Positions 33,592 to 64,000 of a stretch of 64,000 nt of DNA are shown here, piece after piece. The stretch lies in assembly GCA_019448385.1 (NCBI GenBank), contig JAGTXO010000081.1, forward strand, positions 20,807 to 84,806, written 5' to 3'. How positions within the stretch are numbered: position 1 is the stretch's first letter; each line of letters opens with the position of its first letter. The stretch is from Diacronema lutheri (taxonomy: Eukaryota; Haptophyta; Pavlovophyceae; Pavlovales; Pavlovaceae). Under the pieces are notes generated by a model. The model saw only the letters and a program-made list of their open reading frames with translations. It made no database searches and had not been told where the DNA came from. A program made the translations under genes and the position numbers.

Positions 33592-33624
<33 letters not shown>

Positions 33625-41604: not shown

Positions 41605-41638
<34 letters not shown>

Positions 41639-42192: not shown

Positions 42193-42225
<33 letters not shown>

Positions 42226-42627: not shown

Positions 42628-42666
<39 letters not shown>

Positions 42667-44575
42667 CGAGGCGTGCGCGGGGGCTTGGGGTGGGCTCCGG
42701 GTGCCGGCGCTGTGCCAGCGGCGGGCTTGGTTGACGCCGTCTCGCCGGGGCCCTTGCGCCTTGCGGCGCGAGCGTCGCGGAGGGGCGTCGGCTGCGCTGG
42801 CTCCGCGTCGGCGGTGGCGTGGGGCAGGCTCTTGTGGAGGGCGGAGCGCTCGCGCACGAGTCGGTTGCCAAGGCGGGCTGTCTGCGTGCCGTTGGGCTGC
42901 GCTTGGGCAGGTAGGACCTGCGGCCTCGGGGGCGGGCGGGTTTTCGTGTTGGGCCAGGCGGCAACGCGCACCGGCCGTGTTCGCGGCCGGCAGGCGGACG
43001 TCCGCAGCGGGGCGGAGAATGCGGGTGAAGCGCTTGCACGGGCGCGGTTCGCACCTGGCGGCCAGGCGATCACGAACCGTTGGGTCGCCCGGCTGTTTGG
43101 TGGAGCCGAGGGCAGCAAGGATAGCGAGCTTGGCCGCCTCATCGGTGACGAGCGGCACTGTTGCCCAGCTCTGTACCTCGAAGCCCTGGATGTGCAGGCG
43201 TCGGGGAAGTTCCCGGCAGCGTCGCCTGCGTCCGTCGAGAGGCGGACCGAAGTCGCGCCCGTGCCCCCGTTGGCGACACCGAGCTCTCGCTCGTTCACAC
43301 CGGCCCGCCGACGCGGGCGCGTGGTGCGCGCGCGTTGGGTGCGTGTCTGCCTCGAGCAGCGTGCCCAGTCGCAGTGTGGGCGCGTGTCCGTCTGCCTCAA
43401 AACGCCACGTGGAGGGGAAGGCGCGGGGCGGGCTCGCCGAGGAGGTGCCGCCGCTCGCTGCCACCCGGCGCGGGCTCGGGGCAGCCGTCTTCGGGTGCCG
43501 CGCTCTTCGCGCCATGCACGAACGTTCCGCCGCGCTCGCAGCGCGCGAGCGCACACACAGAGCGCGCGGCGACCCCGGCGGGGGCAGTGCGTCCCGGTGG
43601 CACTCGCGGGCGCGCGCCTGGCCTGGGCGCAGCTGGGCGCGTTGCCGCCCGCGCAGCGAGCCGCCCGCGCGCCTCGCCGCGCGCGCGCTTCGTCGCACGC
43701 GTGCGCCCTGCATGCACGCGCACAGCGCGCGGCGGCTCGGCGCAGTGCAAGGCAGAGCGTGCTGCAACGGTTGCGAGGGCGCGCACGCGCGGCGCGGCGC
43801 GCCCCTGTGTGGTCGCCTGCGCGCGGCGCGTGGTCCGGACGCAGCTCGGTGGCGTGATGCCGTTCGTGCAACACAGTGCGCGTGAGAGCCGCACGTGCAC
43901 ACCTGCAGTGCAACGCGGCATTGCGCGCGTTGCGTGGGCGGAGCGCGGCTGGATGTGCTTGAGGTCGCGCAGCATGCCGCGCGCCGCGCGCTGTGCGGCG
44001 CAGCGAGTCGGCCATGCCCCTGGTCCTCGTCTCCGGGGGGGGGGGGGGGGGGGGGGTGGTGGTGGCAACCAGGATCCGCCAGCGCGTGGTGGGCGCCGTC
44101 CAACTCCCAGCCAGGATGCGCCCCGTTCTTCCCCGACACTCTCCGTCCAAACCCGCCGCCCAGCCTGCCGCCGCACCCGCCGCCAACGCCGCCGCGCACC
44201 CATCCGCCGAGCTCGCCTCGCGCGCGCTCGCGCTCACGCTGCGCGACGAGGCTGCGCAGGCCGGCGCGCGGCCGTGCAGAGCAGCGCAGGCCGGCGCGCG
44301 GCCGCGCGCGCGCGCTCACGTTGCGGCCGCGCAGCGAGCTTTCGCCGCGTCGCAGCCCCTCCGAGCAGCCACGATGCACGCCCCCGGAGGACGTTGGCCG
44401 CGCTCGGAGGCCGCGCTCGGGCGCGCAAAGAGAGGCGGCGCGGGCAAACGAGTAGGCTCGGCGCGCTGGCGGGTCCTGGTTGTGGGAGAGCGGGGCATTC
44501 TCTAGGGCATCATGTAAATTCTCCCAAGTATCATCCGGGCCGCCATCCGGACACTGACGTGCCCACAGTCTGCAG
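41857..44575. other. Unresolved accessory interval rich in G homopolymers
   Basis: Holds G runs at 42195-42225, 42629-42666 and 44035-44056. On the minus strand some segments look coding: GFEVQSWATVPLVTDEAAK and AILAALGSTKQPGDP near 43,080-43,200, AQCAIAVAGPQTQTLTCP near 42,580, VDPERKAALLAVLVRRKY near 42,000. I found no consistent exon set joining them. Long frames on both strands are mostly composition-driven. Confidence 0.4.
42169..42600 (-). CDS. Possible 3' exons of a membrane protein
   Basis: After a GCGCCAG acceptor near 42,600 the minus strand reads AQCAIAVAG, then two hydrophobic segments (LALTVAVAATVIAAGAAAL and VFIPALLALAAYVG), then KSTQDLS. A GTGCTG donor there and a GGCAG acceptor after the C run (42195-42225 in plus sense) join in phase 0 to AAIEPH and a stop. 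Upstream exons unknown. Low confidence. Confidence 0.3.
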
Positions 44576-47500
44576 ATGGAGGACTCCGTGAAGGACGCTT
44601 TGCCCGGCGGGCGGGGCGGCTCGGACAGTTTCTCGCTGGCCCTCAGCACCATTCTGTCGCCGGGAGATACCCACCCCCACGTGGTCCCATCCACTTGCCT
44701 CATCGCCCTGCTGCGTTACGCGGATTTCGGCACGAGCAGGGTTAGGGTGGGCGACACGGGGTGCTCGCAGCATGCGCTCAAGGTGGCGCTGCGCAACCTG
44801 CGCAAAGCATGCGCGGATGCGGACCGGTTTGGGCAGGTGCTCGTGGTCGTGCTACCGCTCTGCCTCCGCGCGTCCAGCGGCCTCGTGCACTGGACGGCGG
44901 CGTACCTGCTCCTCGCGCCGCCCGCGCAGCGCGGCGCGCCGCCCGGCGCCGCGCTCGCCCTGCTCGCCGATTCGCGCACCTTGGGCAACGGCGAATCGGC
45001 GTACGCCACGGCGGCCGGCGTGCTCATCAAGAAGCTTGCGCAGCGCATCGGCAGAACAGCGCCGCCCATCGATGCCTTCAAGGCGCCCCCGCAGAGTGGG
45101 GCCGCGTGTTGCTTCGCCGCGGCAACAGTCGCGGCCGAGGTCGTGGCGAGCGCATCGACGCTCTACGGCCGCCGCGCGAGTGTCCTTGTCGACATCAAGA
45201 AGGCTTTGGACGCGCGCCTCGCGCGCCTCACGACGGCCGCGTACGAGGAGACCCGCGCGCGCACGCTCCGCGCCGCCATCGGCGCTCTGCTCGGCGACCG
45301 CGCCAGGCGCTTCGGCCCGTTCACCCGCGAGGCCGCGCGGCTCGCCGAGGCCGCGCGGCTCGCCGAGGCGTGCGATGCCAGTGTCGGCGGATCCGCGCCC
45401 GACGGGCTGCTGCAGGCCGTCGAGGCGGCGCTGCGCGCGCCCGACGACCGCATCGCACGCACGGCCGCGCTCGACGCGCTCACGGGCGCTGCAGGCCGCG
45501 CGCTGTCGACGGCGGCCAGGCCGCGCGGCGCGGCGGCGCCAAGGCCGCCGTCGCGAGCGCCACCGCCGCGTGCGCCGCAGCGGCGCGCCGCCTCGGCGTG
45601 GGGGCCCCGACCATTCAGCAGCCTCGGCGGGGGCGAGGGCGACGGGGACGATGGCGACGCCACCACCGCTGACGACGGGGAGGGCGCGGAGGACGGGGAC
45701 GACGACCCCGCGGGCGCGGCGGCTGCGGCGGTGGCGACGGGCACGGCGGCGACGAGCGCGGTGGCGGCGGGCGCGGCGCCAACCTCGCCGGCGGCGGCGG
45801 ACGGCGGTGGCTCGGCGCCGCTCGAACGCCGCTGCGTCTACACTGCGCCTGATGAGGGCGACGCGGACGCGCGCGTGTACGACGCCAAGGACCCCGAGCA
45901 GCTAAAAGCGGGCAGGGCGCGGCTACGGGCGAACAGCGGGCGCGCGCCCGCCGTGGTCGACACGCTTTTCGCGCACGCGACGGGCACGATCGTCACGCGG
46001 CAGCGCACGGAGGGCGTGACCGGCGCGGGCATGCACCACCTCGCCGCCCCGACGCAGGGCGCGGGGTACGGTACCGTCGTGCGGGCCGAGCTGGGCGAGC
46101 CCGGCTTCGCGGGGACGACATGGCACATGACGTCGGGCGTGGAGAACCAGCCGCGCGCGGTACGAGCGGCCGCGCGCGCGTACGCGCACGACGGCTGGGG
46201 CGGCGTGTACAATGCGCACGAGGACTTTGCCGCCTTCGAGGGCTTGCCGCGGCTCGCCGCGCCCGAATCGCTCGCGGCCATCGCCGGCGGGTCGGCGGAC
46301 GCGGTGTTCTGCTGGCGGTCCGGCCGGTCCGTCATCGGCGAGGTGACGACGGTTCACTTCAATGGCGACCGCGCCGCCGCCATCGACCACGCGCGGGCGC
46401 TGCGCGTCAGGCCCGATTGGCGCTCGCAGCCCAGGATCTACGAGGCGGCGTGCGGCGCGGAGGGCACGGTGCTGCTCGTGTGGGTCGTGCCCGACCGTCA
46501 CAAGAACCCGCGGCTGGACTGGGCGCCGATTCTCGTCGTGATCCACCTGCCCGCCGACCCCGACTGGCTCGCGCGCGCCACGCCGGCGATCGCGAAGGCG
46601 CGGCGCGAGGTCGAGGACGGACGCGCGCGCGCGGAGGCGCGCGGCGTGCCGCAGCACCTCGCCTACACGCTGAGCCCACGCTTCCGAGGCACCGCGCCGC
46701 GCGGAGCCGCGCGCGTGCCGCCGCGCCTCGGCGCGAGCGACGCGCGCGAGGCGCGCGCGCTCGCGGCGCTCGAGCCGGCGCTCATGTTCGCGCCGGCCTG
46801 GCGGCGCGCGGTGCGCGCGGCGAGCCGCGCCCCCGGCAGTGGCGCCGCGGCCGTCGAGCGCGCGCTCGCGCGCCTGCACAACGCGCTCGAGCCCGATGAC
46901 GAGAGCGCGCCCGAGTCGACGCGCGTCGCGCCGCTCGCCGCCGCGCTCGAGCAGTCGGCGGGCTGGCCGGCGGGCACGGCGCGCATGGCGGCAAGCGTGA
47001 CCAAGGGCCCCGGCGTCGGAGATGGCGCAGGTGGCGACGAAGTGACCAAAGTGGAGGAAACGGCGAAGACGAGCGGCGACGGCTGCACCGGCACGCCTCC
47101 TCTGCGCCCGGCCGCGCGCGCGGCCGGCGCGGCGGACGACGGAGGGGCGGCGGTCGTGGCGGGCGTCGAGGGCGAGCGCGACGCACTCGCCAAGACGGGT
47201 GCCGGCGGCTGCGACGACGACGCTCGCGAGCCGCTGTCGGCCGGCAAGCCCGGCGCACTCGCCGCCGCGGCGACCGTCGGGGGTCTCGGCGAGCTCGTCG
47301 GCAGCCTATGCGCGTGGCTGGCGCGCGGCGCGGCTGGCGGCGCCATCGCGGCCATCTCCCCCGGGACGGCCGCGCGCGGAGCAAACGGCACGCCGCAGCG
47401 CGCCGAGCCGCCGGCCGCCGGCGATCCCGTCGCTCCGCACGCGCGCGTCGCCGCTGCGGCGCCCTTGGCGGGCAGCGCGGCGGCGCCGTCGTCGGCCGCG

Positions 47501-50500
47501 CGCGACGCGCAGCGCGGCGTCGCGGGAGTCGACGCGGCCGCGCACGCGCACGCGCGCGACGGCAGGCGGGCGGCACGGCGGATGCGCGAGCAGGAGGGGG
47601 CGGTGCACAGGGCCTTCCGCATGTCCCTCTGGCGCGACGCGACGTTTGTCGAGTTCGTTGAGAAGCTGCGCCCCGACGGCGGCGCGCAGCTGCTCGCGCG
47701 CGAGCCCACGCGGCGCGCGGCGGCGGTGCTGTGCGAGCTCGCGCGCGGCCGCGACGGCGCGAGCGGCGCGGCCGGGCTGCTGCACGAGATGAGAGCCGCC
47801 GATGCGCGCGCGCGCGAGGCCGCCAAAGCGGCGGAGGCAGCGCAGCTTGCGCACGGGACGCTGCGCATCGTGGCAACCGTGGCGCTGGGCGGTGCGGTCT
47901 TCGCCGGCATGTCAGCGCTGGTCGTTGCTTGCGCGGCGCGCACGGCGACCGGTGCGCTTTTTGGGGCCCGCCGCCCGCGGGCGGCCGCGCGCGGAGCCGA
48001 CGACGCGCTCGGCACGCTGCAGCGCGCCGAGCCGCCGCCCGCCGACAAGGGCAAGCGCAGGCGCGCCAGAGCCAACGGCGACCCCGTCGACGCGGCGCGC
48101 AAGGCCGTGGGCAAGGCGGAGGGCAACTGCCGCAAGGCAGCCCGCCGGCTGCACCTCGCTGCACTGGGCGAGGAGGAGGCGCAGCAGCGCGTGCTCGACG
48201 CCGAGGCGGCGGAGCAGCTGGCGCGCTCGCGCGAGCCGGCCGGCGGCTGGGTAGGCAGCGCGCGCGCGCGCGCGCGCGCGCGCCCCGCCGCGCGCGCGCC
48301 CGTCGATTGGCGTGCGCGCAGCGCAGAACGGCGCGCCAGCTCCGTCACCTGCGCGCCGCCGCGCCCGTGCCCCTCGCGCGCAGGGGCGCCCTGCGGACCT
48401 GCGGCTGCAACAGGCGCACTTTGGCATGCGCGAAGATGCCGACGCGGATGTGCGCCGCGCGCACGAGGCGCTGCGCCGGGCGAGACAGGGTGTGGCGTGC
48501 GCCAAGGCCAGCGTGCGGCAGATGGAGGCGGCGTTGCTCAACGCGACGCGCTGCGCCACCGCGGTGCTCGCGCCGCGTGGCGTGCCGGAGGGTGACGAGC
48601 AGGCCGCGGCGAGAGAGCAGGCGGCGCTGGACCGGGAGGCGCCGCCGGCCGCGCAACGCGCGGCGCCGACGGCGCGCTCGCCCTCGGAGCCGCCGTCCGA
48701 GTGGGGCCCGCCAGCGGTCGGCCGGCGCCCGACGCCGCGTGCACTGTCGCACGCCGCGGGTCGCGGGGACGACAACCCGTTTGCGCCGCTCGCAACCGTC
48801 AGCGGCGATTGGTCGCCCACGCCGAGCTCGCGCTCGCCGTCCTCGCCGCCGCGGCAGCCGCCGTCCGACCGCCGCAGCGCGCAGCGTCGCAGCGCGCGCG
48901 CGCGGCCGCCGAGGCCGACCGTTTCGCCCGAGGACGCGCTCGCAGCCGAGCGCCAGGCGCGCGCGCTGTCGGAGCAGGCGGAGCAGAGGCGCGCCAAAAA
49001 GGCCGCCGCCAAGGCCGCGCGCCGCGCCGCGCGCGCCGCCGACAAGCGGACGGCGCGCGTCGTCCACGCGTGCGTAAGCGCCGCCTTGCGGCGCGTCTGC
49101 ACGAGCGTCGCCACGGGCACGCCGCTCGCCGTGCTCCGCGAGCGCGCCGAGGGGCCGCGCGCGCCGAAGCCCGCGCCCGCGCCGCCACGCCGCGCAGCGG
49201 ACGGCGGCCGCGCGCTCCGCCACGCGCGCCGTGCGGCCGCCGCGGCGGCGGAGCGCGAGGCGGCGGTGGCGGCCGACGCCGACGAGCGGTTCGAGCGGCA
49301 GCCCTCCGCCGCCCGGTTCGACGGCGGCGATGGCGGCGGAGGCGGCCACGTCGAGGCGAGCGCGCGACCGCGCGCCGGCGAGGCCGGCGAGGCTGGCGCG
49401 CACGGCGCGCCTGGCGCAGCGGGGCCCCCGGCGGCGTCGCTCGCGTCGCGCAGCCCGTGTGATGCGCGCCGCACGGCACGCCTCCCGCACGCACGCGCCG
49501 CAGCCACCTGCGCACGCAACGGCGGCTGGGGTGGCAACGTCGGCGGCGACGTGTGCGGCGGTTGTTTCGGCGGCGGCGGCGTCCGTCGCGACGCCTGCGG
49601 CGGCGGCGACGCCACCTGCGGCTGCGGCGATGGCGGCGTCGGTGCTGGCGCTGGCGAGGCCCCTGCACACGGTGCGCCGGCGCGCGCGACGGCGTCGCGC
49701 TTGCTGCGCTTGCTCGGCGCGCCACGCGCCGTGCTCGGTGCGATGGCGCACGCCGCGGCCGTGTTGGCGCGCGGCGTGGCCGCAGCCGTCGCTGGCGTGC
49801 GCGCCGCCGCGCGCGCCGTGCGGCGCGCGCGCCGCCGAGCGCCTCGCGCGCGCCGCACGGCTGCGCGGCGGGCTCGCGGCCCGCCGATGCGCGACGTCGA
49901 CGGCGCCCTGCGGCCCTCGCCGTCCTGGTTGCGCACACGCCTCGTCTGCGGCCGGCGCCTCGCGCCTCTGCGCCGCGCGGGCGCGCGCCCGCCGCCCGCA
50001 CACGCCGCGCCGAGTTCCCGCGCGCGCGCTGCGCAACCCGACAGCGACGCGCCGGCGTGCGCGCCGCGGCGCTCGGCGCCTGTCGGTGCGCCGCCGCGCG
50101 CGCGTGGCCTGCGCGCGGCGCGCGCACGGCGCTTCCTCGACGTCGCCGGCCGCGCGGCGCGGAGCGCGCGCCTCGGCGCGCGCATCACGCGCCAGCGCAC
50201 GCCGGGTTCGCCATCGGAGCCCTGCACGGCCGAGAGCGGCGACGGCGCGGGCGCCGGCGGCGTCGGCGCGGCGGCGCCTGGCGCGGCGACGATGCGCGCC
50301 ACCGGCGCGCGCGCAGCGCGCGCTGCGGCGGCGGCGGTCGGTGGCGCCTCGCGTCTCGCGCGCCGCGCGATGGCAAGCGCCGCCGCCGCTGCCACCTCCA
50401 TCGCCGGCGCTGCCGCCTCCACCGTCGCCGCCGCCGCCGTTGCCATCGGCGCGGCCGTCACGTCACCGGCGTTCGCCGCGGCGCGCGGCATGGCGGCCGC

Positions 50501-52820
50501 ATGCGTCGCTGCCTGCGCCCGCCCCACCGCCGCGCAGGCGGCCGCGTCGCGCGCGCTCGGCGCGCTCTTCGTGCTCGTCGACGCGGCCGACGCGGCGGGC
50601 GACAGCGACGCCGCGCTCGGCGCGCTCGCGGCCGCGGTCGACGCGACGGAGCTGCGCCCGCCGCCGGCCTTTTGGCGCGCGGGCCGCGCCGCGGCGTACG
50701 CACCGCGTCCGCCGCCCCTCGACTCGGCGCGGCCGCGCTACAACCGGCGCGCGCGCGCACCTAGCCCTCCCGTCGCGGCCGCGCGGCGCAATCTCGCGCG
50801 CGCGGTGCGCGAGCTCACGCGCGCCGCGCGCGCTGAGCGCGAGCGCGCGCCGGCGCCGCGCGGCGCGCGCGGCGGCGTGCTCCACGCGCTGCGCGCGTCG
50901 CTCCCCGTGCACGCGCGTGCCGCGCTCGGCACGGACGCGGAGCTGCGCGCGGACATCGCCGCGTTCGCGCGCGCGCGCCGCGAGCTGCACAGCCTCACCG
51001 ACGCCGAGGTGGCGGCGCTCGCGCGCCCGGACGGGCCGCCGCTGCCCGTGCGGCTCGCGTGCACGGCGGTCGCGCGCGCGCGCGGCGTGACCGTGCTGCT
51101 CGACATCGTGCCGCGCGGCGGCGGCGCGCCCGAGCGGCTCGTGTGCCGCGCCCGTCGCCGCGGCGCCGCCACGCGCACGCCACGGCCGACAGCCGCCGTT
51201 ATCGCGCGCGCGCCTTGCATAGCGGCGCGCGTTGGCCACACTGAGCCGGCGCGCGCGTGCGCGGGCGGATCGATCGGGGTCGCGCGCCTCCGTTCAGCGC
51301 GCCGCCGCTCTTGGCGTGGGGCGCGGCTCGACGTGCACACCCGCGAGCGGCTGGCCACACCGGTGCCAGGCCACGTCGTGGCCTGCGCCGCCGCCTCGGC
51401 CATCGGCGCGTGCGTCGCTCGCGCGCGGCTTGGGCTTGCACGGCTGGCGCGCGCGTGGCCCTGCGCCTCCGCTCCACTGGCCGCTGCTGCTGTCGCCTTC
51501 GCGCCTGCCGCCGACGGTGTTTTCTGCGCCCCGCTGGGCGCTCCTGCATCCGCCTTCGCGCCTGCCGCCGACGGTGTTTTCCCCGCCGCACTAGCCGCTG
51601 CTGCATCCGCCTTCGCGCCTGCCGCCGATTTTCCCGCCCCACTAGTTGCTCCTGCATTCGCCTCCGCGCCTGCCACCGACGGCGTTTTCCCCGCCCCACT
51701 AGCCGCTGCCGCTGCCGCGTCCGCGCCCGCCGCCGCGGGCGCGTCTTCCGCCCCACCAGCCATCGCCGCCGCGCCCGCCGCCAACGCGCGCACCGCCAAC
51801 GTGCCCGTTGCCAACGAGGCTACCGCCACCGAACCAGCCGCCCTTGAGCTTCCCCTCCAACCCGCCAACTCGGCGCTGCTTGCGTGGGCGGGCGACGCGG
51901 CTGCGCGCCGGCTGGCCGCCGCCGCCGCGAGCGCCGGCCTCCCGCAGGCAGAGGTGGAGCGCATCGCCAGCGGCGACATGCTCGCCTCAACCGTCGACGC
52001 GTGCTGCGAGGTCGTGCTGCGCGTGCACGGGCAGGCCGGCGGCGGGCATGTCTGCCACGTGCCGCTCGCCGCGCAACCCGCGGTGTTTCAGGACGACGCC
52101 GAGCGCGCCGCGCTGCTGCACCGCCTGCGCAGCGAGGCGACAACGCAGGCTGTCATCGGCGTGTGGAGCCCGTCGGACGAGCGCGGCGGCGCGGGCGGTG
52201 ACGACGGCGCGCAGCTCGCCTCCGGCCATTTCACCGCGTTGCGCCTTGTGCGCGTCGCGCGCGCGGGCGAGCATCGCTACGACGCGGTGCTCGTCGACAC
52301 GCTCGCGTCGCCCTGCAGGCAGGCGCTCATGCTCGCCAAGGCGATAACTGCCACGCTGCACGCGGCGGGTCTCGACATTTCGCGCGTGCGCCGCGCGCTG
52401 CTGCTCAACGAGGCGGCGCAGCGTGGCGCGACGTGCGGCCTCGCGATAGTGGGCGCGCTCAACGACGCGCTCGCCGCGGCGGGCTGCTCGTCCGCGCCGC
52501 GCACGTTCAGCGTGGCGGACATGTACGCTGTCGGCGAGCGCCTCCGCGTCGCGCTGACCGGCGCGGCCAGCGATCGTGCGCCGGGCGGCGTCTGCGCGGT
52601 CACGAGCGCGGTGCGCGGCGGGGGCAGCCCCGATGGCGCCGAAACGCCGCCGCAGACGCGCGGCGCCAAGGCCGCCGCTGGCGTCACCGCCGCCGCCACC
52701 GCCGCCGCCACGCCGCCGCCGCCCGCGCTGGGCGCCGCCGCCGCCGCCACCGCCGCCGCCGCCGCTGCTGCCGCCGCCGTGGCCGCGCCGCCACCGCCGC
52801 CACCGCCGCCGCCGGCCGGC

Positions 52821-52900
<80 letters not shown>

Positions 52901-55179
52901 GCGCACGTTCTTGAAGCTCGCGCCCAGGGCGCGCGCGGCCGCCTCGGCGCGTGAGGCGTTGCGCGCCGCGTGTGCGCGCGCGGACGCGGCGGCGTCGTCA
53001 CACGCGTCGGCGCCGCACGCGCCCGCCGGTGCGCGCCGCCGGCGGCGCGCGGGCGCAGGCGAGCTGGCGCTCGCGGCTGCGCGCGCGCTCGCCTCGACGG
53101 AGCACGGCGATTTGACGGACGACGCGCTCGAGGCCGCCGTCGAGCAGGAGCTGGGCGACGAGCGCGGCCAACTGCTGCTGTGCACGCGGGGCGCAGCGGC
53201 GCAAAGGCCCGCGCTTTGCCGGCTCCTGAAGCACGCGTGCGCGTCGGCGCGCGCGGCGAAGCGCGCGCAATTCACGGTATTCGTCGTGCGCGCGGCCACG
53301 CGCGGCGAGCGGGGGGGCGCCGCCGCGAGGCGCGTGGACTCGGTGGTCGAGCTGTCGTGCGCGCTGCACGAGAAGGCGGGCGCGCTCGGCGGCCTCCAGA
53401 GCGTCTGTGTGCGTGGCTTTGCCCTCGAGCGCCGCCGGACACTCGACGCTGGCGCCGAGGCCGGCGCGTCCGCCATCGGCCAGGACGAGCAGGTCGAGGC
53501 AGAGGCGGGCGAGGCGTGCGTCGCCGGCGTGACGATGGCCAAGCAGCTGCGTCAGTTTGCCGAGCAAGCTGCCCGCGACGACGTGCTCTTCCACGTCGCC
53601 GTGTCCGAGGCCGACGCCCACGCCCGGCTGGCGCGCGTTGCGGGTGACGATGTCGGCGCGTACAGCGTCGTGCTCGCAGTCGCCGGGCTCGTCTGGCTGG
53701 CCAAGGCCGACGAGGTTGCGCCGGCGGCCGCCCAGTCCGCCGCCGTGCCGCCCGCCGCCCCGCCTGCTGCCGCCACGTCCGCCGACGCCGAGCGCGACGC
53801 CTCGCCTTCCGACCGCCTGCGCGCGCTGACGCTCGCCGTGCGAGTCGCGCTCGCGCGCGGCGTGCTGCGCCACCTCCTCGCCGACGCGTCGCCGGGCGCG
53901 TCCGCGACCGCTGGCGGTAGTTGCGCGACGCCCGTCGAGGCGGCCGCGTCCGACGCCGCGCCGCCCGCCACGGGCGTCGTGACGAGTGGCGTTGCGGCGG
54001 GCGCTGTGGCGGCCGCACCGGCTGCTGCGGGCGGTGCGATGGCGGGTGCATCGCCCATCGCGCGGCCGGCGAAGCGCGCGCGGCGCACGCTCACCGCCGC
54101 TCCAGCCGCCTCGGCCGTTGCGGCCGCTGGAGGCGCACGCGCGGGCGCACGCGGCGCGGCCGGCGCGCCTCGCGCGCGCGCCGCGCGCGCGCCGGCCGAG
54201 TACGTCTGGCTTGCCATCGCGCGCCGGATGCTGGCGGCGCGACACGCGGCGGCCGCGGGCGGCGACTTTGTCGCGTCGTGCGTCGCCGCGATGCAGGCCG
54301 AGTACGGCGACGGCTGTGCCGTCGTCGTCGGCGACGCGCCTGGTGACGCCTTGGTCGAGGCTGCGGCGGCGGCGCTGCTCGAGGGCAAGCACGCGGCGGT
54401 GAGCCTCGGCTGCGTCGACCGGCCGGCGGTGCTCGTCGTGCAGCGCGCCGTGGACGCGCCCACGTCGCGCGTGCACGGGTGGTGCGCGCACGCGGCGGGC
54501 GCCGCCGAGTTTGACGAGGGCGCCGCGCGCGACGTGTTCAACGCGATCGTCGAGCGCGCGTGGGCGCTGCGTCCGGACCCGGCCGACGGCAGCCCGCCGC
54601 CCACGCGCACGTGGGAGGTCGAGCAAATCGCTGACGACGCGCCCGACCAGGCGGGCGTGGCCGCGCTGCGCGTGCTCTACGCGCTCGTCGCGGCGCACGG
54701 CCGCTACCGCTCGGCCGCCGCGCTCTTTGGCGCGATCGCGCAGCTGCACGCGCCCGACGCCGCCGGCGCGCGCGCGGAGGTCGTCGCGGCGGCGTGCGCG
54801 GTGCCGCCCGGCGCGCGGCCGGGCGCCGCGCCGGCGGCCGCGCGGGACGACGCGAGGGAGCGCGCATGGGAGGGCGCTCAGATCGCCGCGCTCGCCGTCG
54901 GCGCGGACGCTGCGCGCAGGCGTGTCGCGCCCGTGCGCGCGCTCGTCGACGCGCTCGGCACGCCGCCGACCTCGGCGATCACGGGCGGGCCGGCGGTGCG
55001 GCTCGCGGGCGCGGGCGACGGCGGCCACGGTGCACGGTGGGTGGGCGGGCAGGCGGCGACGCCCGCCGAGCAGCTGCCGAGGGAGCTGCTGCGCGCCTAC
55101 CACGAGGCGGTGCTGTGCGTCACGCCCGGCAGCCTCCAGCTCGGCCCGGCGGCGCTCGACGCGGTCACGCGGCCGCGCG
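44576..55179 (+). CDS. Giant polyprotein, N-terminal part, with Ulp1/C48-like peptidase modules
   Basis: Exons 44576-48250 (1,225 codons) and 48414-about 55179 (about 2,255 codons), joined by a phase-0 GT-AG intron with a CG-alternating tract. Module 1 at 44,860-45,130 has the Ulp1-like order His (GLVHWTAAYLLL), Asp (ALLADSRTL), Gln and Cys (APPQSGAACCFAAA). Module 2 at 52,160-52,480 is clearer: SGHFTALRLV, YDAVLVDTL, AAQRGATCGLAIVGAL. Module 3 (53,260-53,700, GDDVGAYSVVLAVAG) has Tyr in place of Cys, and module 4 (54,370-54,700, DDAPDQAGVAALRV) lacks it. Between them lie an unassigned globular region (45,830-46,680), a likely membrane span (IVATVALGGAVFAGMSALVV near 47,870), Ala-rich coiled regions and an Ala run from a GCC repeat (52,829-52,900). 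The frame stays open to 55,802 but the coding signal moves to the next frame at about 55,180. Confidence 0.7.
52829..52900 (+). repeat. GCC trinucleotide repeat encoding polyalanine
   Basis: About 24 GCC units in the polyprotein frame, preceded by imperfect GCC/CCG runs from about 52,680. Likely a length-variable linker between modules. Confidence 0.9.
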
Positions 55180-58100
55180 GAAAACGACACGCTGGAAGGC
55201 CTCCTCGCGCGCGTCAGCTGGCAGTGCGGCGCGAGGGCGAGCACGTGCGCCATGCTCGCCACGTTTTCCGAGCAGGCGGGCACCGGCTCGCGCGTCGCGC
55301 TCAAGGCCCTCCGCACGAGCTCCGACCTGGCCGGGCTGACGGCGGCTGCGGTCGGGCAGCAGGCGCCGCAGACGCCGCCGCCGCCGCTGCTCGTGATGCT
55401 CGGCCGCTGCCCCAGCCCGCTCGTCGGCGGTGGCCTCTTCCCGCCCGACCGCGCGACGGGCGAGCCGGCGGTGCACGCGGCGACGTCCGAGCTCGCCGTC
55501 GAGCTGCTGCGCGACGCGCGCGCGCTGGCCGGCACGGACGGGCGGCTCGTCGTGCTGTGCCTCGAGGCGTCCAACCCGCTCTGGTTCTGCCCCAAGGTGC
55601 GCGAGCTCGAGCTGCCGCGGACGCGGTCGGACGGCGTGCGCGCGTCCGGCTGCACCTGCCCTGCGACGTGCAGCGATGCGCGCGGCGCGGCGGGTGGCGC
55701 TGCCCGCGGCGCATCGACGCGGCCGGCGGCGCGCGCGATCAACAAGGCGGTGCTCGACCACTTCGTCGCGCTTTTCGGCCGCGAGGGCTTCGCGACCTTT
55801 GAGTTTGCGGGCGGCGGCGAGGCGAGCTGGCTGTGCGACAGCGCGGCCGGCACGACGACCGTCGCGGCGTGCGCGTCGCTGCCGCCGCGCATGGGCGATG
55901 GGCAGCTGGCCATCCGGCGGCACACGCTCGGCACGGGCGCCGACGCGCCGGCGCACGCCGTCGTCTCGCTCCGCGTCGCGCACGTGAGCCACGCCATCCG
56001 CCGCGCGGCGGACGACGGCGGCGCGCGCGCCGAGCGGATGGCGCGCGCCGCGCGCGCGTTTTGCGATGTGGCGGCCGCGCTGCGCGTCGACGCGATCCTG
56101 GCGGAGGTGCCCGAGGACCGCCCGACGGGCACGCCCTTCCTTGGCGGGCTGCTCAAATGTTGGGACAAAGACCACGGGAGCTCGACGGCGCCAGCCACGC
56201 TCGCGCTCGGAGACGTGCGCGAGGTGGCCAAGCGGACGGCCGACGCAGCGGCCGGCCGAGCGGACGAGGTCCCTGCGGCTGGCCGTCCGCAGGTCGCGGC
56301 GCGCGCGTGCGCTGGCGCGATTGGCGGCGGCGCGGGCGCGGCGGGCGCCTCGGACGCTGCGCCGCGTGCACTGGCGGGCGCGTCGGGTGCGCGCACGGAC
56401 GGCGGCCCTGCCGACGCACCGCGCCAGCTGGAGAGCCGCTACGGCGAGGCGAGCAAGCTCGACCTACCCCAAGATTCCACTACGGGCCGCGTCCTCGACG
56501 CTCGCGAGGCCCAGGACCGCGCGCGCGTGCCTGCTGCGCCCGACGGCACAGCGCTGCGCCGCGTGCTCGACGCCGTCGGCGCGGGCGCGCCCGCGCAGCG
56601 CAGCCCGCGCTGGCACGACGAGCGATGGGAGGAGGTCACGGGCAGCAAGGTTGGCGACGTCGTGAACGACAACGCCGGCGTCGCGCACGAGACGCTCACC
56701 GACGAGTACGTGCACCGGCGGCGGCGCGAGGTGCGGACCAAGGCGACGACCGCGGGCATCCTCGGCGAGGCCGTCGCGCTGCGCAAGCTGGCGGCCGCGT
56801 ACGGCATCACCGTCGTGTGCAACCTGCCGATGGTGCGTGCGGACCCGCACGACAAGAGCGCGCCGTTCGCCTTCTCGCCGGACGGGCTCGCCATCCTCCC
56901 CGAAAACAACGAGCAGGTCCTCGTCGAGGTGAAGACGCTCACCAAGGCGGGCGCCACGGCGCACGAGGACGGGCCGCCGCAGCCGCACCGCGATCAGCTG
57001 CAGCTCGGCATGCACGTCCTCGGCGTGAGCAAAGCGCTCTACGTGCAGTACCTCAGGCACGAGGACCGGATCGTCGTGCACGTCGTGACGCGCGGCGCCG
57101 GCTGGCTTGCATTCGCGCAGCCGAGGGTGCAGGCCTTCTGGGCGCGCGTCGTCGAGCGGCGCGCGCGGCTCGAGCGCGCGCGCACCGACCACCCGGCTGC
57201 GAGCCGGCGGCACCGGCGGCAGCAGACGCCGGCCGGGCCGCCGCTCGTGCTCGCGCTGGACGGGCGCATCCCCGCCGCGCGCGCCGCCGCGCTGCACGCC
57301 GTCGCGCACGGCACCGCGAGCGCGGCGGCGGTGACGGCGGCGGCGGCGACGGGCGACGCGACGGCGTTGCAAGACGCGATCGCGGCGCTGCGCGCGCCCG
57401 TCGGCAATGCGGCGATCGCCAGCGCAGCGCGTGCGGAGCGCGCGGCCGTCGAGCGGGCGATCGCGTACCTCGGGCAGCCGGCGGGCGACGCCGCCGCCCG
57501 CGGCACGGCCGAGGCGGCCGAGGAGGAGAGGACGGTCGACGCCGACATCTGCGCGTTGCTGCACCAGCTCGGCGCGAGCGTGGCGCACGTGCACGTCGAG
57601 GACGCGGATTGCGTCACGCGTGAGCACTGGGGCGAGGCGGTGCTCGCTGCAGCGGACGACCCGTCGAGCGCCCCCGCCATTTCGAGCGTCATCGTCGCGC
57701 ACATCGTGCGCCTCGCCGGCTTTGGCGTCGAGCTCCCGCAGTCGATTCGCGTCGCCCCCAGCACGGCCGACTGGCACGAGGGCTGGCTCGACGTGCAGTG
57801 CGTGCTGCTGCGCACGCGCCGGCGCGGGCGGCGCGACGACGACTTTGTGGCCGTCGTCAGGCGCGGTGGGCGCTGGTTTGCGTGCGAGCCCGGCCGCGCG
57901 CGGCGGCTGCAGTGGCGGTCGGTCCTACGCCGCGCGCGCGGCGGCGTCGACGGGACCGGCGAGGAGGCGTTCGCGATCGTCTACGTGCGGCGCGGCGACG
58001 CGGCCGGCGACGCGGCTGGCGACGCGCAGGCCGCACGGGCGCGCGGCGGGCGCGCGCGCAGGCGCACGCGCGGCGGCACGCGCAAGCGCAAGCGCGGCGC

Positions 58101-61100
58101 CTCCGCCGGGCTCGAGGCGGCCGCGCCCGCCGGCGCGCCGGCTGCCGCGCCCGCCGGCGCGCCGGCGGGCGCTGCTCACCGCCCGCCCGCCATGCGCGCC
58201 ACGGTCGCCGCGCGCACCACGCGCTCTGTGACCGACGCGCTGCACTCGGCGCCTGCCGCCACGGTTGCACCTGTCTTCGACTGGCGCGCCGGCCGCCCGC
58301 CCCCCGCCGCTCGAGCCCGCCACCCGCGGCCGCGTGGGCGCGCGCCACCGGGCAAGGCCTGGGACAGCGTCTCGGGTGCGTGGGCGGACAAGCCGACTGG
58401 TGCTGCCGTCGCCGCCGCGCCGCCGCCGCTGCCGCCCGCCGCCGCGCCGCCGCCCACCGCCGCGCCGCCGCCCGCCGCCGCGCCGCCGCCCGCCGTCGCG
58501 CCGCCGCCCGCCGCCGCGCCGCCGCCGCCGCCGCCACCGGCGGCGCTCAACCGCTGGCAGCACGTCGGCGCGGGCGGCAGCGCGGCGGGCCGGCGGCTCG
58601 CGGCCATCGCACGGCGGCAGCGCGGCGTGCGCGCGCCGCCGCCCGCCGCGCGCTTCCTCGCCACGCTGCCGCCACCGCCACGCGACGGCCTCGCGCGCAC
58701 GAGCAAGCAGGCGCGCGCGAGGCGCAACGCGGACGGACGGCCGGCGCACGCGCGCGCGGCCAACGCGCGCGCCTTCTACCGCGGCGTGGAGCTCGGCGTG
58801 CACGCGACGCGCGCCATCGTCGACGCGCGCCACGCCGACCTGCCGCAGGCCGTCTTCGTGGCGGAGGCGCGGGCGATCGTCGCGCGCTCCGCCGGCGGCG
58901 GCGCGCTGCTCGCGCCGGACGACGTGCGCGACCTGTGCGACGCGCAGACGGACGCCGATCGCGCTGCGATCTGGGCGTCGGTGGGCGCGCACGAGGCGAC
59001 GCGCATCTTCGCGCTCGTCACGCGCAACGCGAGCTTGGCGGGCGCGGCGCTGCTCGTGCTGCACACGCCGGCGGGCGCGCCGGCGCGCGCGCTCGGGCTC
59101 CTGGCGATGCGCTCGCGCGCGCCGTCGACGGGCGCGCCGCGCGACGCGCACAGGGCGCTGGTGCAGCGGTTGGACGTGCTGATGGACGCGATCGCCGCGG
59201 CGCGAGGCGCGTCGCCGCTCGAGCTCGAGCTCGCGCTCGCGCCCGAGCCGCAGAGCGCGTGCAACGCGCGTGCGGCCGCGCTGCTCTGCCTGCAGGCCGT
59301 CGCGGACGCGAGCGGCCGTCCCGCCGCTGAGGACGCGCTGGCCGCGCTCGACGACGCGCGCGGCATCGACCGGCACTGCCACGCCGTCCGGCAGCAGATC
59401 GAGGCGAAGCTCGCGTGGCGGCGCGCCGACGGCGCCGTCGGCGTTGACGGCGCCGACGGCGCGCCCGCGCTCGCGCCTGCCGCCGCACCGCCGGCGTGCG
59501 CGCCGGCGCACGCTGCCGGCGAGGCGGCGGTCGACCAGGCGATCGTCACGCGGGTGCGCGACGCGCTGCGCGCGTGGGCGACGACTGGCACCGCGCCCAG
59601 CGCGGCGGTGCTCGACGACGCCTGCGCCGCGTACACGGCCCGCGCACGCGCGCGCAAGGACGCGCGCACGGCGCTGGGCCCGACGCGCGCGGCCGAGCTG
59701 CTCGCCGCGGCCGCGCGCGGCGGAGCCGACGGGGCGGATGCCGCGCGCGCGCTGCTCGGCGGCACGCCGCGCCTGCTCGTCGTGCTCCTCTGCGTGCCCG
59801 TCGCCGCGCCGTCCGGCGAGCCGCCGCGCCCGGTCGGGCTGCTCGTCGCCGACCGGCCGACGGACGACTCGCGCCCGGCCGCGCTCGTGCGCTACGACTT
59901 TGCGCCGCTCGACGCGGACGTGGCCGTCGCGGTCGGCGCGCATGCCGTCGCGCTGGCCAGTGCGATCTGGCCGCTGCTCGCGGCCGAGGGGGAGCCGCGG
60001 CCATCGCCCGTCGTGCGCTCGCAGCCGCGCGGCGGCGACGATGGCGCGTGTGCGCTCGCAACGTTCGCGTGCCTCGACGCGCTGATGACCGCCAGCGTCG
60101 GCGCGCACGGCCTCGCGGGCGGCGCGGGCATGCTGCCCGCGCTGGTCGCGCGAGGCGCCGCGGCCGCCCAGCGCGAGCGGCAGCTGCGCGCGGCCGCCGA
60201 GAGGCTGGGCGGCACGGTCGCTGGGTGGCCGGACACGGGCGCGAGCGCGGCGGGCGCGAGCGTCGACGAGGAGGCGCGCACGTACGAGGTCGAGGCGGTC
60301 GTCGACGAGCGCCGCAAGGCGGGCAAGAAGGTGACGTTCCAGCTCCGGATCAGGTGGCGGGGCTACGACGAGAGCGCCGACACGTGGGAGCCTGAGGCCA
60401 ACGTGAGCAGCGACCTCGTCGCCCAGTTCCGCAAGACGCGCGACGAGCAGAAGCGGCGCGCGGGCGGATCGGGCAGCGGCAGCGGCGGCGCGGGCGCGGC
60501 GTCGGCATTGGCGTCGGCGCCGCTTCGCGCGCACGGCGAGTCGGGCGCCGCGGGCAAGCGCGCCGCGGCGGGTGCCGCCGCGAGCGCGCGCGACGCCGCG
60601 GGCGCGCGCGCGCCGAGCGTTCCCCGCGCGCGCGGCGTCGAGCGCGCGCGCGTGGACGAGCCCGCTGCGCCGAGCGCGCGCGCCGCCGGCGGCGCGACGG
60701 CGCGCACGCGCGGCAGCGTGCTCCCGGGCTTCGTGGTCAAGCGCTCGACGCTCAACGCGGGGCCGCAGGCGGTGACGGCGCAGCCCGGTGCGCGGAAGGA
60801 GCTGCGGCGCATCGCGGCGGCCGTGCACAGGCTCACGACACAGGCGTACCGCGTCATCAACAAGGTGGTGCGCGACGAGGCTGCGGTGGCGAGCGCGCAG
60901 GCCGTCGGCGCGGCGTCGGGCGGCCCGTCGACCAGCGTGCACACGTCGACCACGATGGACAAGGGATCCGTCCGTGCGATCTTCTCGGCCATCGGCTGGC
61001 ACAAGGACGAGAGCACGTACGGTGCAGCGCCCCGAGGCAAGCCCGCCGAGCAAGCCGCCGCGCAGACCAAGGCGGCGACGGCGCGCGCCGTCGGCGAGAT

Positions 61101-63443
61101 GGCCGAGGGCGTCCAGCCCGTCTGCGCGGTGGGCCTCACGGAGATCCTCGAGGCGGAGGCGACGCAGGTGTCCACCGCGTGCCTGATGCACCCATCGCGC
61201 GTCGTGAACGGGCTGCTCCGCGACGTCGTCCGCGCGGCAGTCGAGCGCGACGAGGCGCTCGTCGCGCTGCCCGAGATGCAGCGAAACGCGCGCGTGCGCG
61301 AGCTGTGCGAGCGGCTGCTGCGCGGCGACGTGGAGGGCGCGCGCGTCGGCTGCCCCGCCGCGCTCGACCGCCACCTGCCCGACATGGTCCTCCACAAGAT
61401 CGACTACAAGTGCACGCCCACGAAAAGGTGGAACTACGACCGGCACACGACGCGCTACTTCCTCGTGCAGATCCGCACCCTGCAGCACGTGGCCGAGGGG
61501 CAGGCGCTGCTCTGCCGGCTCGCGCACATCCACACGCAGCTGACCGGACGGCCGCCGCGGTACAATGTGGCGCCGCTGCGCACGCACAATGTGCGCGCGA
61601 GGCGTGGCTGCCGCTGCCGCCGCCGAGCGCCCAAGCGCGCGCGCCGCCGCCGTGCGCGCCGCCCCGCGGCCAGGTTGGTCACGCGCCCGCGCGCTCGCGC
61701 GCCGCGCGCTGCGCGCAGGTGCCGCGCAACGTGCGCCTCGCCGCGAGCGCCATCTGGGTGACGCTTTCGGATGACGAGCGCAAGGAGCTGCGCGCGCGGC
61801 TCAAGGCGCTGGACCTGCGCGACCACGATGGCGAGCCGATCAAGTGGACAGGCACAAACGGCAACACCCCGCCGATGTCGGACGTGCGCGTCAGGTACGC
61901 GGTCTTTGCGACGCGCTTCGACATCTCCAACCGCGTCTTCGACTACGCCGGGCGCGAGCGGCCGCCGGCCGATCTGCCGTGGCACGCGCGGCGCTCGTGG
62001 GTTGGCCTCGCGCCGCTGCCGCGCGTGCCGCTCCCGGGCCGGCAGCCCGTCAAGTCGGTGGTGACAGATGGCGTCGCCGTGCACGCCGTCGGGACCGTCC
62101 TCGTGCCGAAGGCGCAGGCGCCGGCCGGCGGCTCGGGCGTCCTGCACCGCTGGCGCCGGCCGGACGGGCGCATCGCCGTCGCGCTCGGCTCCGAGCTGCG
62201 GCGGGCGATCGACGTCGAGGCGGCGGTCGTCGTCGCGGCCGACCCGAACATGGGCAACATCACCACCTACTCTGCGCACGTCGGGCGGGCGGCCGTCTGG
62301 CGGCAGTTCACGCAGCGCGCGCGCGCGCGCGCCGCGGGCTTTGCGCGCGAGACGGCCAAGACCAACGCGGCGCGGCGGCGCGTGCGCACCGACGGGCGCG
62401 GCGAGGAGTTCAGCGTGGAGGCGGACGAGGCGCGGCTTGGCGAGGCGCACAGCGCCAAGGTGCTCGACGCGGGCAAATACATCGCCTTCCACCGCGAGAG
62501 CGCGCGGGTGCGCGAGCGCGCCGCCGAGCACGTGTACGACGCGCCGGCGCGCCGGAAGGAGCGCTGGCGGCGCGACAGCGGCGGGCGGTCCAACGCGGCG
62601 CGCGTCGCCGAGGCGCTCATCGCGGCGCACTGTGTCGACGGCGTGACGCGCGACCGGCTGCTCGTGTGCGTGGGCAAGTGGCTGCGCGACCACAAGGGCG
62701 CGCAGCCCAAGGGCGCGCCGCCCGCCTTCCAGGTGGGGCTGCTGCGCGAGCTGCGGCGGCGCGGCGTCGCGGCCGTCTTCGTGCCCGAGCCGTACACGTC
62801 GATGCACTGCTCGATGCCGCGGCTCGCCAAGGGCGGCAGGCTGCAGCGCTGCGGCGCGGAGCTCGCGCAGAACCCGCGCCTGCCCGTGGCAAAGGGCGGC
62901 ACGCGCACGGTGCACGCGCTCGTCATCTGCCCGGCGTGCAACGGCGGCAAGAAGCCCGTGCACCGCGACTACAACGCCGCGCGCAACATCTTCTACGACG
63001 TGCACGACATGGCGGCGCACGCGGCCGGGCGCGACACCACGTCGACGCCTGAGCGCTTTGCCCTCGTGCTCGCCTGGTGGGCGCGCGGCGAGGTGTGGGA
63101 GCGTGAGGAGCGCATGGTGCACGGCGAGGGCGACGACTGCGACGACGAGTGCGACGGCGACGACGAGGGCGACGACGAGGGCGACGACGACGACGACGAC
63201 GATGGCAGCGGCGACGGCGGCGGCGGCGAGGGCGACGGCGACGGCGACGGCGACGGAGGCGGCGGCGGCGACGACGACGATGACGGCGGGGGAGGCGGCG
63301 GCGGCGACGGCGGTGGCGACGACGGCGGCGGGCGCGGCGGCGGTGGCGGCGGCGGCTCTCGCGCCCGCACCCCCGCCCGCGGAGCTGCCAGCGCCAGTGC
63401 CGGCGGCGGCAGCGCGCGCGGGCCGAAGCGCGGCCGGCGTTGA
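55180..63443 (+). CDS. Giant polyprotein, C-terminal part: exonuclease, peptidase modules, chromodomain, Fanzor
   Basis: Exons 55180-61590 and 61719-63443 (phase 0, GT-AG, donor GTGCGC), about 2,711 residues. Module order: an unassigned domain (55,180-56,250); a lambda-exonuclease/YqaJ-type nuclease at 56,600-57,170 with FSPDGLAIL (Asp), VLVEVKTL (Glu-x-Lys) and HRDQLQLGMHVLG (Gln); an unassigned module at 57,550-57,960 with DDDFVAVVRRGGRWFACEPG; a Pro-rich linker; two further C48-like modules at 59,000-59,300 (PEPQSACNARAAALL) and 59,760-60,090 (QPRGGDDGACALATF); a chromodomain at 60,276-60,450; and Fanzor1 from about 60,790. No start codon is needed if it is read through from the upstream part by a +1 shift. 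If separate, the first usable ATG would be the one in TCAMLATF at 55,252. Confidence 0.75.
60276..60450 (+). other. Chromodomain within the polyprotein
   Basis: Reads RTYEVEAVVDERRKAGKK, then VTFQLRIRWRGYDESADTWE and PEANVSSDLVAQF. This is the chromodomain pattern Y-x-V-E-x-I-L-x-x-R ... Y-L-V-x-W-x-G-Y-x-x-x-x-x-T-W-E-P-x-x-N. The three aromatic cage positions are Tyr (TYEVE), Trp (IRWRGY) and Tyr or Trp (RGY, DTWE). It would bind a methylated histone tail. Confidence 0.85.
60790..63100 (+). other. Fanzor1-type RNA-guided nuclease module
   Basis: The helical N-terminal half follows Fanzor1: AAAVHRLTTQAYRVINKVV, SVRAIFSAIG, GLTEILEAEATQVSTACLMH and PSRVVNGLLRDVV. The RuvC-like part has VVVAADPNMGNITTYSAH (Asp at 62,241), FVPEPYTSMHCSMPRL (Glu at 62,787) and VHRDYNAARNIFYDV (Asp at 62,967), so all three catalytic acids are present. 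Zinc-binding cysteines are seen in TSMHC, LQRCG and VICPAC; the usual second Cys of the first pair is not in the CxxC position. The tail after 63,110 is Asp/Gly-rich and ends in the basic GPKRGRR, a possible nuclear signal. The 128-bp intron at 61591-61718 lies inside the module. Confidence 0.85.
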
Positions 63444-64000
63444 CGCACGGCCGAGCCGCGCAGCGGTCGACGCTTTGCGGGCTCTGCCCAGGTCGCGCGC
63501 GGCTGGCGACGCGTGCCGCGCGCGGCACGACCGTGCACGCCGCCACCCGTGGCCGAGCGCGCCGCACCAGCCGGCCCGCTCCAACCGCCGTGCGGATCAC
63601 GGACGCTCGCTACGGCTCGTCGGCGCGCGTCACCTGCGCCGGCGGCCACGGCGCCGTCTGCTCCGGCCTCGTCGCGAGCAGCCCGACCGCTGCTCGCCGC
63701 CCGCACGCCGCCGCAGCAACGCTGCGCGTCGTGCTCCCCCGCTCGCCAAACGCGAAGAGCTCCCTCACAAGGACGTCCTTCCGAACGGCCCGCGCTGCAC
63801 TCGGGGCGCGATCGTGCCCCTGATCGGATTTGGCTTGACCATCTATACGGCTACAAAAGAAAAAGAAAAAATGTAATCATCAGCGCGCGAGGTGAAATTG
63901 AGGAAGGCGGCCATCCGCACCCACGCGAACCCCCTTTGCCAACCTCGCGCCGCCACGTCCGGCTGAAGCAGCAGCGCAGCGCGGCGGCGTGTGCGCTCCG
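63444..64000. other. Downstream flank of the polyprotein, no gene assigned
   Basis: GC-rich to about 63,780, then a short AT-rich stretch (ACAAAAGAAAAAGAAAAAAT near 63,852). Fanzor guide RNAs are usually encoded at or beyond the 3' end of the nuclease gene, so this is where one could lie, but I see no hairpin or repeat that proves it. Confidence 0.4.

Follow-up and report, generated by a model that had tools for sequence, protein, structure and literature searches.

A chromodomain beside a Fanzor-like nuclease module in the polyprotein of a 31-kb transposon-like element of Diacronema lutheri

We analysed a window of 64,000 nucleotides from the haptophyte Diacronema lutheri (contig C68:20807-84806 of a 43.5-Mb, 103-contig genome), in which a chromodomain is followed, in what appears to be one protein, by a Fanzor-like nuclease module. 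Both stand at the end of a giant polyprotein encoded by a 31-kb mobile element. An earlier note, made from the letters of this stretch, had pointed to the chromodomain, the Fanzor module and an intron, and all three hold; what it had presented as a two-domain unit is instead the tail of a giant transposon polyprotein with about 200 copies in the genome.

Our reading of the whole is that a 31-kb transposon encodes Pif1, USP and the polyprotein and inserts 3' of a TATA motif, that its Fanzor is RNA-guided, and that its chromodomain acts as a tether; we consider this reading about evenly poised between being right and being wrong. Its foundations, namely the domains, the element ends, the target motif in the sampled copies, a paralogue and an intron placed by homology, are established from sequence comparison. 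Fanzors in eukaryotic transposons are known. The chromodomain pairing is undescribed in the open-access literature, as the earlier note had supposed: we found no description there of a fusion of Fanzor or TnpB with a chromodomain (most subscription papers lie outside that literature). In the available portions of PMC6338049, PMC11071296, PMC12898463 and PMC11728184, the Fanzor/TnpB and chromodomain terms stand in unrelated passages, and neither term is mentioned in the available portion of PMC6431247, on giant transposons.

Chromodomain, Fanzor-like module and the frame between them

The chromodomain scores above its Pfam cut-off (Table 1) and is repeated in copies, which bears out the earlier description of it as clear. 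The nearest solved structures are those of CDYL (E 9.7e-11), CDY (E 3.7e-9) and HP1 (E 5e-9), and alignment to CDYL and HP1 locates a Y, a W and a Y residue (in YEVE and RWRGY) that we take to be the methyl-lysine aromatic cage. Host chromodomains are 40% (contig C5, L002) or 32-33% (others) identical to it and, at such low identities, its source is not evident. Behind the chromodomain, a low-complexity linker that is probably coding leads to the Fanzor-like module after about 95 codons, rather than the 110 or so estimated before. Third-position GC in the proposed frame is 0.98 in the chromodomain, 0.94 in the linker and 0.95 in the N-terminal half of the Fanzor; the contrast is weakest in the linker, where GC at the other two codon positions is also high (0.83 and 0.82).

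Fanzor1 proteins are transposon-borne eukaryotic relatives of TnpB (PMC3627910; Saito et al. 2023; PMC10711439), and those described are mostly 600-700 aa long (PMC11423790). The C-terminal half of the module in the window carries a TNB domain at 62751-62990 in frame 60396-63443 (PF07282, 27.3 bits against a cut-off of 26.3), together with RuvC-type D, E and D residues at codons 62241, 62787 and 62967. These three residues are invariant in the window, in P0007 and in a divergent second D. lutheri family (C74:351370-352947 and C82:1476180-1477757; 43% identity over 769 aa to the window Fanzor), as read in its C74 member; four zinc-finger cysteines are invariant in the window and in two families 43-50% identical to the window copy. 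The Fanzor/TnpB motif D-x(125,275)-[TS]-[TS]-x-x-C4 zinc finger-x(5,50)-RD (Bao and Jurka 2013, PMC3627910) is fitted by D-x184-TS-x2-C4-x8-RD (D162 ... T347 S348 M H C351 ... C394 ... R403 D404 in exon-2 numbering). The Fanzor "Ealt" glutamate, six residues ahead of the zinc finger (Yoon et al. 2023, PMC10711439), is found as E344-x6-C351 and is kept in P0007 and C74, with the distance counted to the first cysteine (the first knuckle is not CxxC). We rejected a chance match for the chromodomain or the TNB domain, both of which exceed curated cut-offs and recur in copies. Altogether, the C-terminal half is Fanzor-like and, by motif comparison, most probably Fanzor1, in line with the proposal of a Fanzor1-type module that keeps D-E-D. 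A homologue search returned three close or partial relatives, no reference Fanzor among them.

Two Fanzor1 features take another form here. In place of DPG at RuvC-I we read DPN in the window, DAG in C74 and DTG in P0007, and in place of a CxxC...CxxC zinc finger the first knuckle is C-x13-C and the second C-x2-C. The odd finger and the DPN, together with the neutral substitution pattern among copies described below, speak for a Fanzor module that is a passenger or structural remnant, its RNA-guided nuclease function lost. We consider this explanation unlikely. The D, E and D residues and the four cysteines are invariant in families 43-50% identical, suggesting selection between families; SpuFz1, whose Mg ligands are D383 and N385 (PMC10432273), likewise has an N two residues past its first D, a pattern matched by DPN in the window. 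DPG itself has been called near exclusive in Fanzor1, not absolute (PMC10711439).

Codon-position GC shows two coding stretches, one in frame 1 between about 55 and 61.4 kb and the next in frame 0 between 61.9 and 63.4 kb. The N-terminal half of the Fanzor (about 60720-61590) shares the chromodomain frame, and the C-terminal half sits in another frame past the intron. The earlier claim of one reading frame is therefore right for the chromodomain and the N-terminal half and wrong for the whole protein, which needs the intron. As many as 301 GT or GC..AG pairs would likewise leave the frame open, so that the frame alone cannot pick among them; it is the paralogue and a public gene model that single out the exact intron. 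Specifically, the alignment with the paralogue, itself without an intron, runs unbroken across the junction, and the D. lutheri protein KFE25_006464 reads ...LRTHN and then VPRNV... over it (predicted as a gene model rather than seen in reads, and derived from a slightly different copy). D. lutheri gene models were made with BRAKER2, using RNA-seq (PMC8379373). The intron thus falls exactly where the earlier note had placed it.

KFE25_006464 is a partial model that starts downstream of the chromodomain. As the only gene model spanning the intron, it is what favours two separate genes, chromodomain and Fanzor, that merely share a frame. We regard this as very unlikely, given a frame that stays open, its third-position GC high, from the chromodomain across the linker to the end of the Fanzor N-terminal half, the gap-free alignment over 439 codons in seven further aligning copies, and the C74 paralogue, in which upstream domains and Fanzor lie in one frame. 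The same model (P0008) is of a SAM-domain gene that opens with a Fanzor fragment of the element, and is either a chimeric gene model or a captured element piece. A homologue search with the chromodomain and Fanzor N-terminal piece returned P0008 and nothing else among 8000 word-sharing candidates scored.

Table 1. Positions of the features in the window, with the evidence for each
Feature	Position	Strand	Evidence or remark
Whole mobile element, 30,968 bp	32881..63848	+	left end GGCGCGGTCCGGGCTGG, right end GGATTTGGCTTGACCATCTATAC; copies diverge beyond the ends
Insertion-site motif CTATATAC, outside the element	32873..32880	+	left flank; TATA at -7 to -4
PIF1-like helicase gene	36240..38644	+	PF05970 53.3 and 87.8 bits on two frames; PF21530 51.3 bits
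USP/UCH (C19) peptidase-like domain	40409..41200	+	PF00443 33.5 bits (cut-off 23.9), best stretch 40409-40675
Upstream coding frame, 1345 aa	44558..48595	+	codon-position GC; Ulp1-like H..D..Q..C by eye; no Pfam match
Polyprotein frame	48255..61761	+	4500 aa unbroken before the intron in the C69 record
RecE/YqaJ (lambda-exonuclease-type) nuclease domain	56587..57162	+	phrog_434 58.4 bits, E 1.4e-15
Chromodomain	60283..60435	+	PF00385 42.8 bits (cut-off 25.1), frame 54403-61761; CDYL/HP1 matches
Low-complexity linker, probably coding	60436..60719	+	open frame, third-position GC 0.94
Fanzor-like protein, N-terminal half (exon 1)	60720..61590	+	within the 43% unbroken alignment to the C74 paralogue
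Intron, GT..AG, 128 nt	61591..61718	+	paralogue alignment and public gene model
Fanzor-like protein, C-terminal half	61719..63443	+	RuvC-type D-E-D, TNB zinc finger, acidic tail, stop
Stop codon to right end, proposed site of a guide RNA	63444..63848	+	position only

Copies of the fusion and a second family

Of 423 candidate copies of the Fanzor C-terminal half, 94 were scored, and all were 98-100% identical and free of stops. At least 82 of the 94 carry the fusion. For 76, the list of chromodomains has an entry at the matching offset (position was scored; the intervening frame was read in the compared copies only), this list holding 146 element chromodomains among 150 scored (260 candidates) plus five places from DNA matches; the remaining four of the 150 are host loci. 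We read upstream in seven of the 18 copies without a listed chromodomain, and six carry it, gap-free with the Fanzor N-terminal half over 439 codons. The additional copy C85:20405, beyond the 94, has the chromodomain and is likewise gap-free over that length. In the seventh of the copies read upstream, C9:427370, the upstream part is rearranged, and an inverted polyprotein piece replaces the chromodomain region.

Across 37 copies there are 96 distinct substitutions (70 nonsynonymous, 24 synonymous, no stops and two in the intron), close to a neutral expectation of about 75% nonsynonymous, 22% synonymous and 2% stop. Eight copies picked for their divergence show 60 nonsynonymous to 13 synonymous substitutions and no stops in frame 1. 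Length differences within the 37 copies comprise a single 3-base change and three 1-base changes. From these counts, copies appear to drift after insertion, with conservation visible only between families. Substitutions are clustered directly past the intron, with 23 in the 182 nt of 61719-61900 (eight copies), as if two sequence types had recombined.

The second family allows the polyprotein to be compared beyond the Fanzor. The C74 frame is 4321 aa long, of which 2026 aa of its end were read; as in the window, it has the YqaJ end, a Ulp-like segment and the Fanzor, here in one frame and with no Fanzor intron. The YqaJ end is 36% identical to that of the window over 181 aa in C74 (E 2e-11) and 33% over 162 aa in C82, where it lies outside the Fanzor frame, a TAG and a frame change being present. 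The C74 TNB domain reaches 22.7 bits with PF07282, under the cut-off of 26.3. The C74 polyprotein aligns on both sides of the chromodomain and has a low-complexity linker in its place: Pfam matched no chromodomain within the 2026 aa read, and a local chromodomain profile run over six frames of 6.5 kb of C74 and 6.4 kb of C82 gave a best E of 4.1 (1.2e-24 in the window). It is possible that the chromodomain was gained in the window family or lost in the C74/C82 family, in the linker before the Fanzor. A homologue search with the paralogue as query found none among 8000 word-sharing candidates scored.

These comparisons bear on another explanation, in which the protease-like segments cut the polyprotein and release the Fanzor as a separate enzyme. 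The chromodomain would then remain with the part for integration or replication and, as in chromoviruses, would direct insertion on behalf of the transposition machinery. Speaking for it, the paralogue keeps the Fanzor without a chromodomain in the part read, and the polyprotein has by eye several Ulp1-like H-D-Q-C patterns, one of them just before the chromodomain (SQPRGGDDGACALATFACLDALM). These Ulp1-like segments, however, are weak evidence, being motif readings without a Pfam match, and the chromodomain stands on the Fanzor side of the last of them. We hold this explanation to be possible but doubtful. Such protease-like segments, if real, may separate the chromodomain from the Fanzor after translation.

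The 31-kb element and its insertion sites

Copies at different loci agree exactly as far as 32881 on the left and 63848 on the right, and the flanks beyond are unrelated. With at most one mismatch, the genome holds 215 right-end 23-mers and 199 left-end 33-mers. Left ends sought at the expected distance were found for two of six (C8 and C75, not C5, C84, C71 or C13), and the four that are off that distance are in keeping with several length classes. Such classes are seen among the first 100 listed left ends, 64 of which have a listed right end at most 45 kb away: 29 pairs measure 30.07-31.08 kb, 14 measure 21.4-22.2 kb, eight 26.0-26.9 kb, eight 29.1-29.4 kb, and five fall outside these classes. 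On C27, three left ends point at one right end, so that at most one of these pairings is right; the other 36 of the first 100 may pair with unlisted right ends. At some 200 copies of 21-31 kb in 43.5 Mb, the element would make up an estimated tenth, roughly, of the genome. The genome paper reports 22.9% repeats, the annotated share being mainly LTR elements and LINEs, and has no mention of a 31-kb element in its available portion (PMC8379373).

The left flank follows a rule. TATA stands at -7 to -4 in all 21 left flanks compared (the window plus 20, a sample of the 199), and TATA-containing octamers account for 27 of 63,992 in the window. The flanking octamer is CTATATAC in 11 cases, CTATATAG in five, GTATATAG in two, and CTATATAT, CTATAGAG and TTATATAC in one each, hence mostly CTATATA[C/G]; the left ends on C8, C75 and C72 conform. 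We considered CTATATAC as part of the element and rejected this, since position -1 varies (C in 12, G in eight and T in one of the 21 flanks) while the 100 listed right ends, of 215, have no mismatch in 23 nt. The TATA insertion rule is strong, not absolute. The earlier note suggested that the chromodomain may aim insertion or cleavage at particular chromatin; at the least, a short DNA motif, mostly CTATATA[C/G], has a part in where the element inserts.

Right flanks vary, 18 of 21 being long enough to read, and in these 18 copies no duplication of two or more bases abuts the ends; L077 (13 bases) and L090 (9 bases) have a stretch common to both flanks that does not abut both ends. The element begins with GGCGCGG and ends with CTATAC, which resembles the target motif. 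No terminal inverted repeat stood out among the matches listed, and terminal hairpin z-scores range from -0.9 to -1.6 at the left end and from -0.2 to +1.2 at the right end. The left flanks of L071, L072 and L088 share GCTGTCCTGACGTAAGCGCCGT at slightly differing distances, indicating repeated insertion into one repeat family.

The start of contig C69 is the same locus as 32808-64000 of the window, with 13 length differences and no substitutions, so that C68 and C69 are probably an unmerged overlap. Contigs C1, C3, C8, C12, C14, C32 and C33 terminate within one base of an element right end, C72, C32 and C49 start a few bases from a left end, and C69 starts 73 bases before one; from this coincidence, the assembly breaks at element copies. 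In the window, the polyprotein reads as overlapping frames 48255-55802 and 54403-61761 through a one-base length difference that is missing from C69, C8 and C75. With three other records lacking it, the difference looks like an assembly error. Long poly-G runs at 42195, 42629 and 44035 differ in length between both records of the locus, and the left part of the element (34872-35758) holds direct and inverted repeats of about 85-105 bp (C69 compared with the window).

Besides the polyprotein, the element encodes a PIF1-like helicase, for which the Pif1 2B domain (PF21530) is matched, and a USP/UCH-like domain whose remaining region, including the His-box, is a reading by eye. The helicase passes from frame 0 to frame 2 inside the domain (about 37450; 37430-37490), with no length difference in two other copies; this may reflect programmed frameshifting, a very short intron or a defect shared by the whole family. 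PADLOC gave only a weak RecD-like match, to the helicase. With other profiles the RecE/YqaJ domain stays below the cut-off, at 25.1 bits with TIGR03033 of NCBIfam (cut-off 68.05) and 16 bits with PF09588 of Pfam (cut-off 22). Family scans covered the open reading frames (ORFs) and, with each stop read as X, all six frames of 32873-36303 and 39300-44254, some small frames elsewhere being outside them. In what was scanned there was no reverse transcriptase, DDE transposase, tyrosine recombinase, Rep, PolB, integrase or capsid family, and neither TnpA Y1 transposase nor packaging ATPase was matched. Three bare H-x-H matches in the 4500-aa frame prove nothing on Rep (HUH).

These scans bear on an alternative in which an integrated virus, not a transposon, accounts for the 31-kb unit. 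In its favour, the unit resembles large DNA viruses and Polintons in its size and in having a helicase, a RecE nuclease and protease-like parts, and adintovirus integrases carry a chromodomain (PMC11071296). Against this, no DNA polymerase, integrase, packaging ATPase or capsid family occurs in the ORFs and frames scanned, there are about 200 near-identical copies, and no terminal inverted repeat stood out among the matches listed. We regard a viral origin as the least probable of the explanations weighed here; with the hallmark families absent from what was scanned, a Polinton or other virus was rejected as a classification. A non-LTR element, considered because contigs stop at a right end that is fixed, was rejected as well, for want of a reverse transcriptase in the frames scanned and with left ends (199) nearly as many and as exact as right ends (215).

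Proposed mobility, rival readings and related systems

We propose a single-strand, rolling-circle or peel-and-paste-like mode of transposition, with cutting after a CTATATA[C/G]-type motif at the target and at the right end of the element. Insertion, as seen in the sampled copies, is immediately 3' of the TATA motif and leaves no adjacent target-site duplication. On the model of TnpB and Fanzor, a guide RNA would be made from the right end (63444-63848) and the bases that open the right flank, with CTATATA[C/G] as the target-adjacent motif of the Fanzor; that of SpuFz1 is CATA (PMC10432273). The Fanzor would then cut the empty donor site, or the sister or allelic site, leading to retention and gain of copies, and the chromodomain would tether the polyprotein or the Fanzor product to chromatin with methylated histones. 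The Fanzor frame closes 405 nt short of the right end and points towards it, and an outward Fanzor near the right end with a fixed motif at the left end is what TnpB logic predicts. A tentative extension of this scheme, which we consider rather improbable, is an RNA-guided homing module of an undescribed superfamily, in which insertion and target-adjacent motif are shared, the guide comes from the right flank, and empty sites are cut only in a histone-marked state, a limit set by the chromodomain.

Several observations weigh against the transposon reading with an RNA-guided, chromatin-tethered Fanzor. The guided_TnpB profile reached only 12.1 bits against a cut-off of 100. Among solved structures, the profile of the C-terminal half met Cas12f1 at only E 0.015, and the full-length Fanzor profile matched no solved Fanzor. 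A guide RNA was not recognised, with a fold z-score of -1.27 for 63444-63848 and no Rfam match in 60000-64000. The right end also has CTATAC ahead of the putative guide match, with which the element would target itself if the motif were not read from farther upstream. No known transposase of any kind was recognised in the frames scanned. Five further left ends, from a mis-spaced search pattern, depart from the motif or its spacing (one with TATATA one base nearer, and four with CATAAG, TATTAA, TATGAG and TACATC). Finally, purifying selection is not visible in the variation among copies (37- and 8-copy sets), and the paralogue, in the part read, lacks the chromodomain, which implies that this domain is not essential to the Fanzor part.

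The element shares features with several known systems and matches none in full. With Fanzor1 it shares the order and spacing of the C-terminal motifs, the Ealt glutamate, the TNB finger and a place near one transposon end; it differs in that the module forms the tail of a giant polyprotein and comes shortly after a chromodomain, and in the C-x13-C knuckle and DPN rather than DPG. Helitron and Helitron2 elements are known to carry Fanzor1 (PMC3627910, PMC6431247), and a helicase (of the Pif1 kind here), the lack of an adjacent target-site duplication and a fixed short target motif at the left end recall them. However, no Rep/HUH was recognised in the frames scanned, the element is 31 kb long with a giant polyprotein, and its ends, GGCGCGG and CTATAC, are not the 5'-TC and CTRR-3' of Helitron1. 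Insertion downstream of a short motif, a variable right-flank base and a nuclease near the right end are features of IS200/IS605 elements with TnpB (PMC10711439), from which the present element differs in having no TnpA found in Pfam scans, in being eukaryotic and in being far larger.

Chromovirus integrases carry chromodomains, and like the chromoviruses and adintoviruses this element has one within a mobile-element protein; unlike theirs, it adjoins a TnpB-type nuclease, and neither reverse transcriptase nor integrase was found. The absence of a reverse transcriptase family from the frames scanned also separates the element from retrotransposons (chromovirus, LINE), and Polintons/Mavericks are set apart by PolB and a retroviral-type integrase, not found in the frames scanned, and by terminal inverted repeats, none of which stood out. 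A further likeness is within D. lutheri, to the second family with its YqaJ end, Ulp-like segment and 43% identical Fanzor, in one frame in C74; that family differs in lacking the Fanzor intron and, in the 6.5 and 6.4 kb read, the chromodomain.

We found no natural RNA-guided nuclease with a built-in histone-mark reader described in the open-access literature. If both domains act together, the protein would be a natural chromatin-aware nuclease of the TnpB type, and a source for testing how a histone-mark reader alters cutting in chromatin. In addition, each copy of the element yields a predicted target-adjacent motif in its left flank and a predicted guide in its right flank. As such, some 200 near-identical copies with exact ends and flanks offer a ready test of what Fanzors do for eukaryotic transposons.

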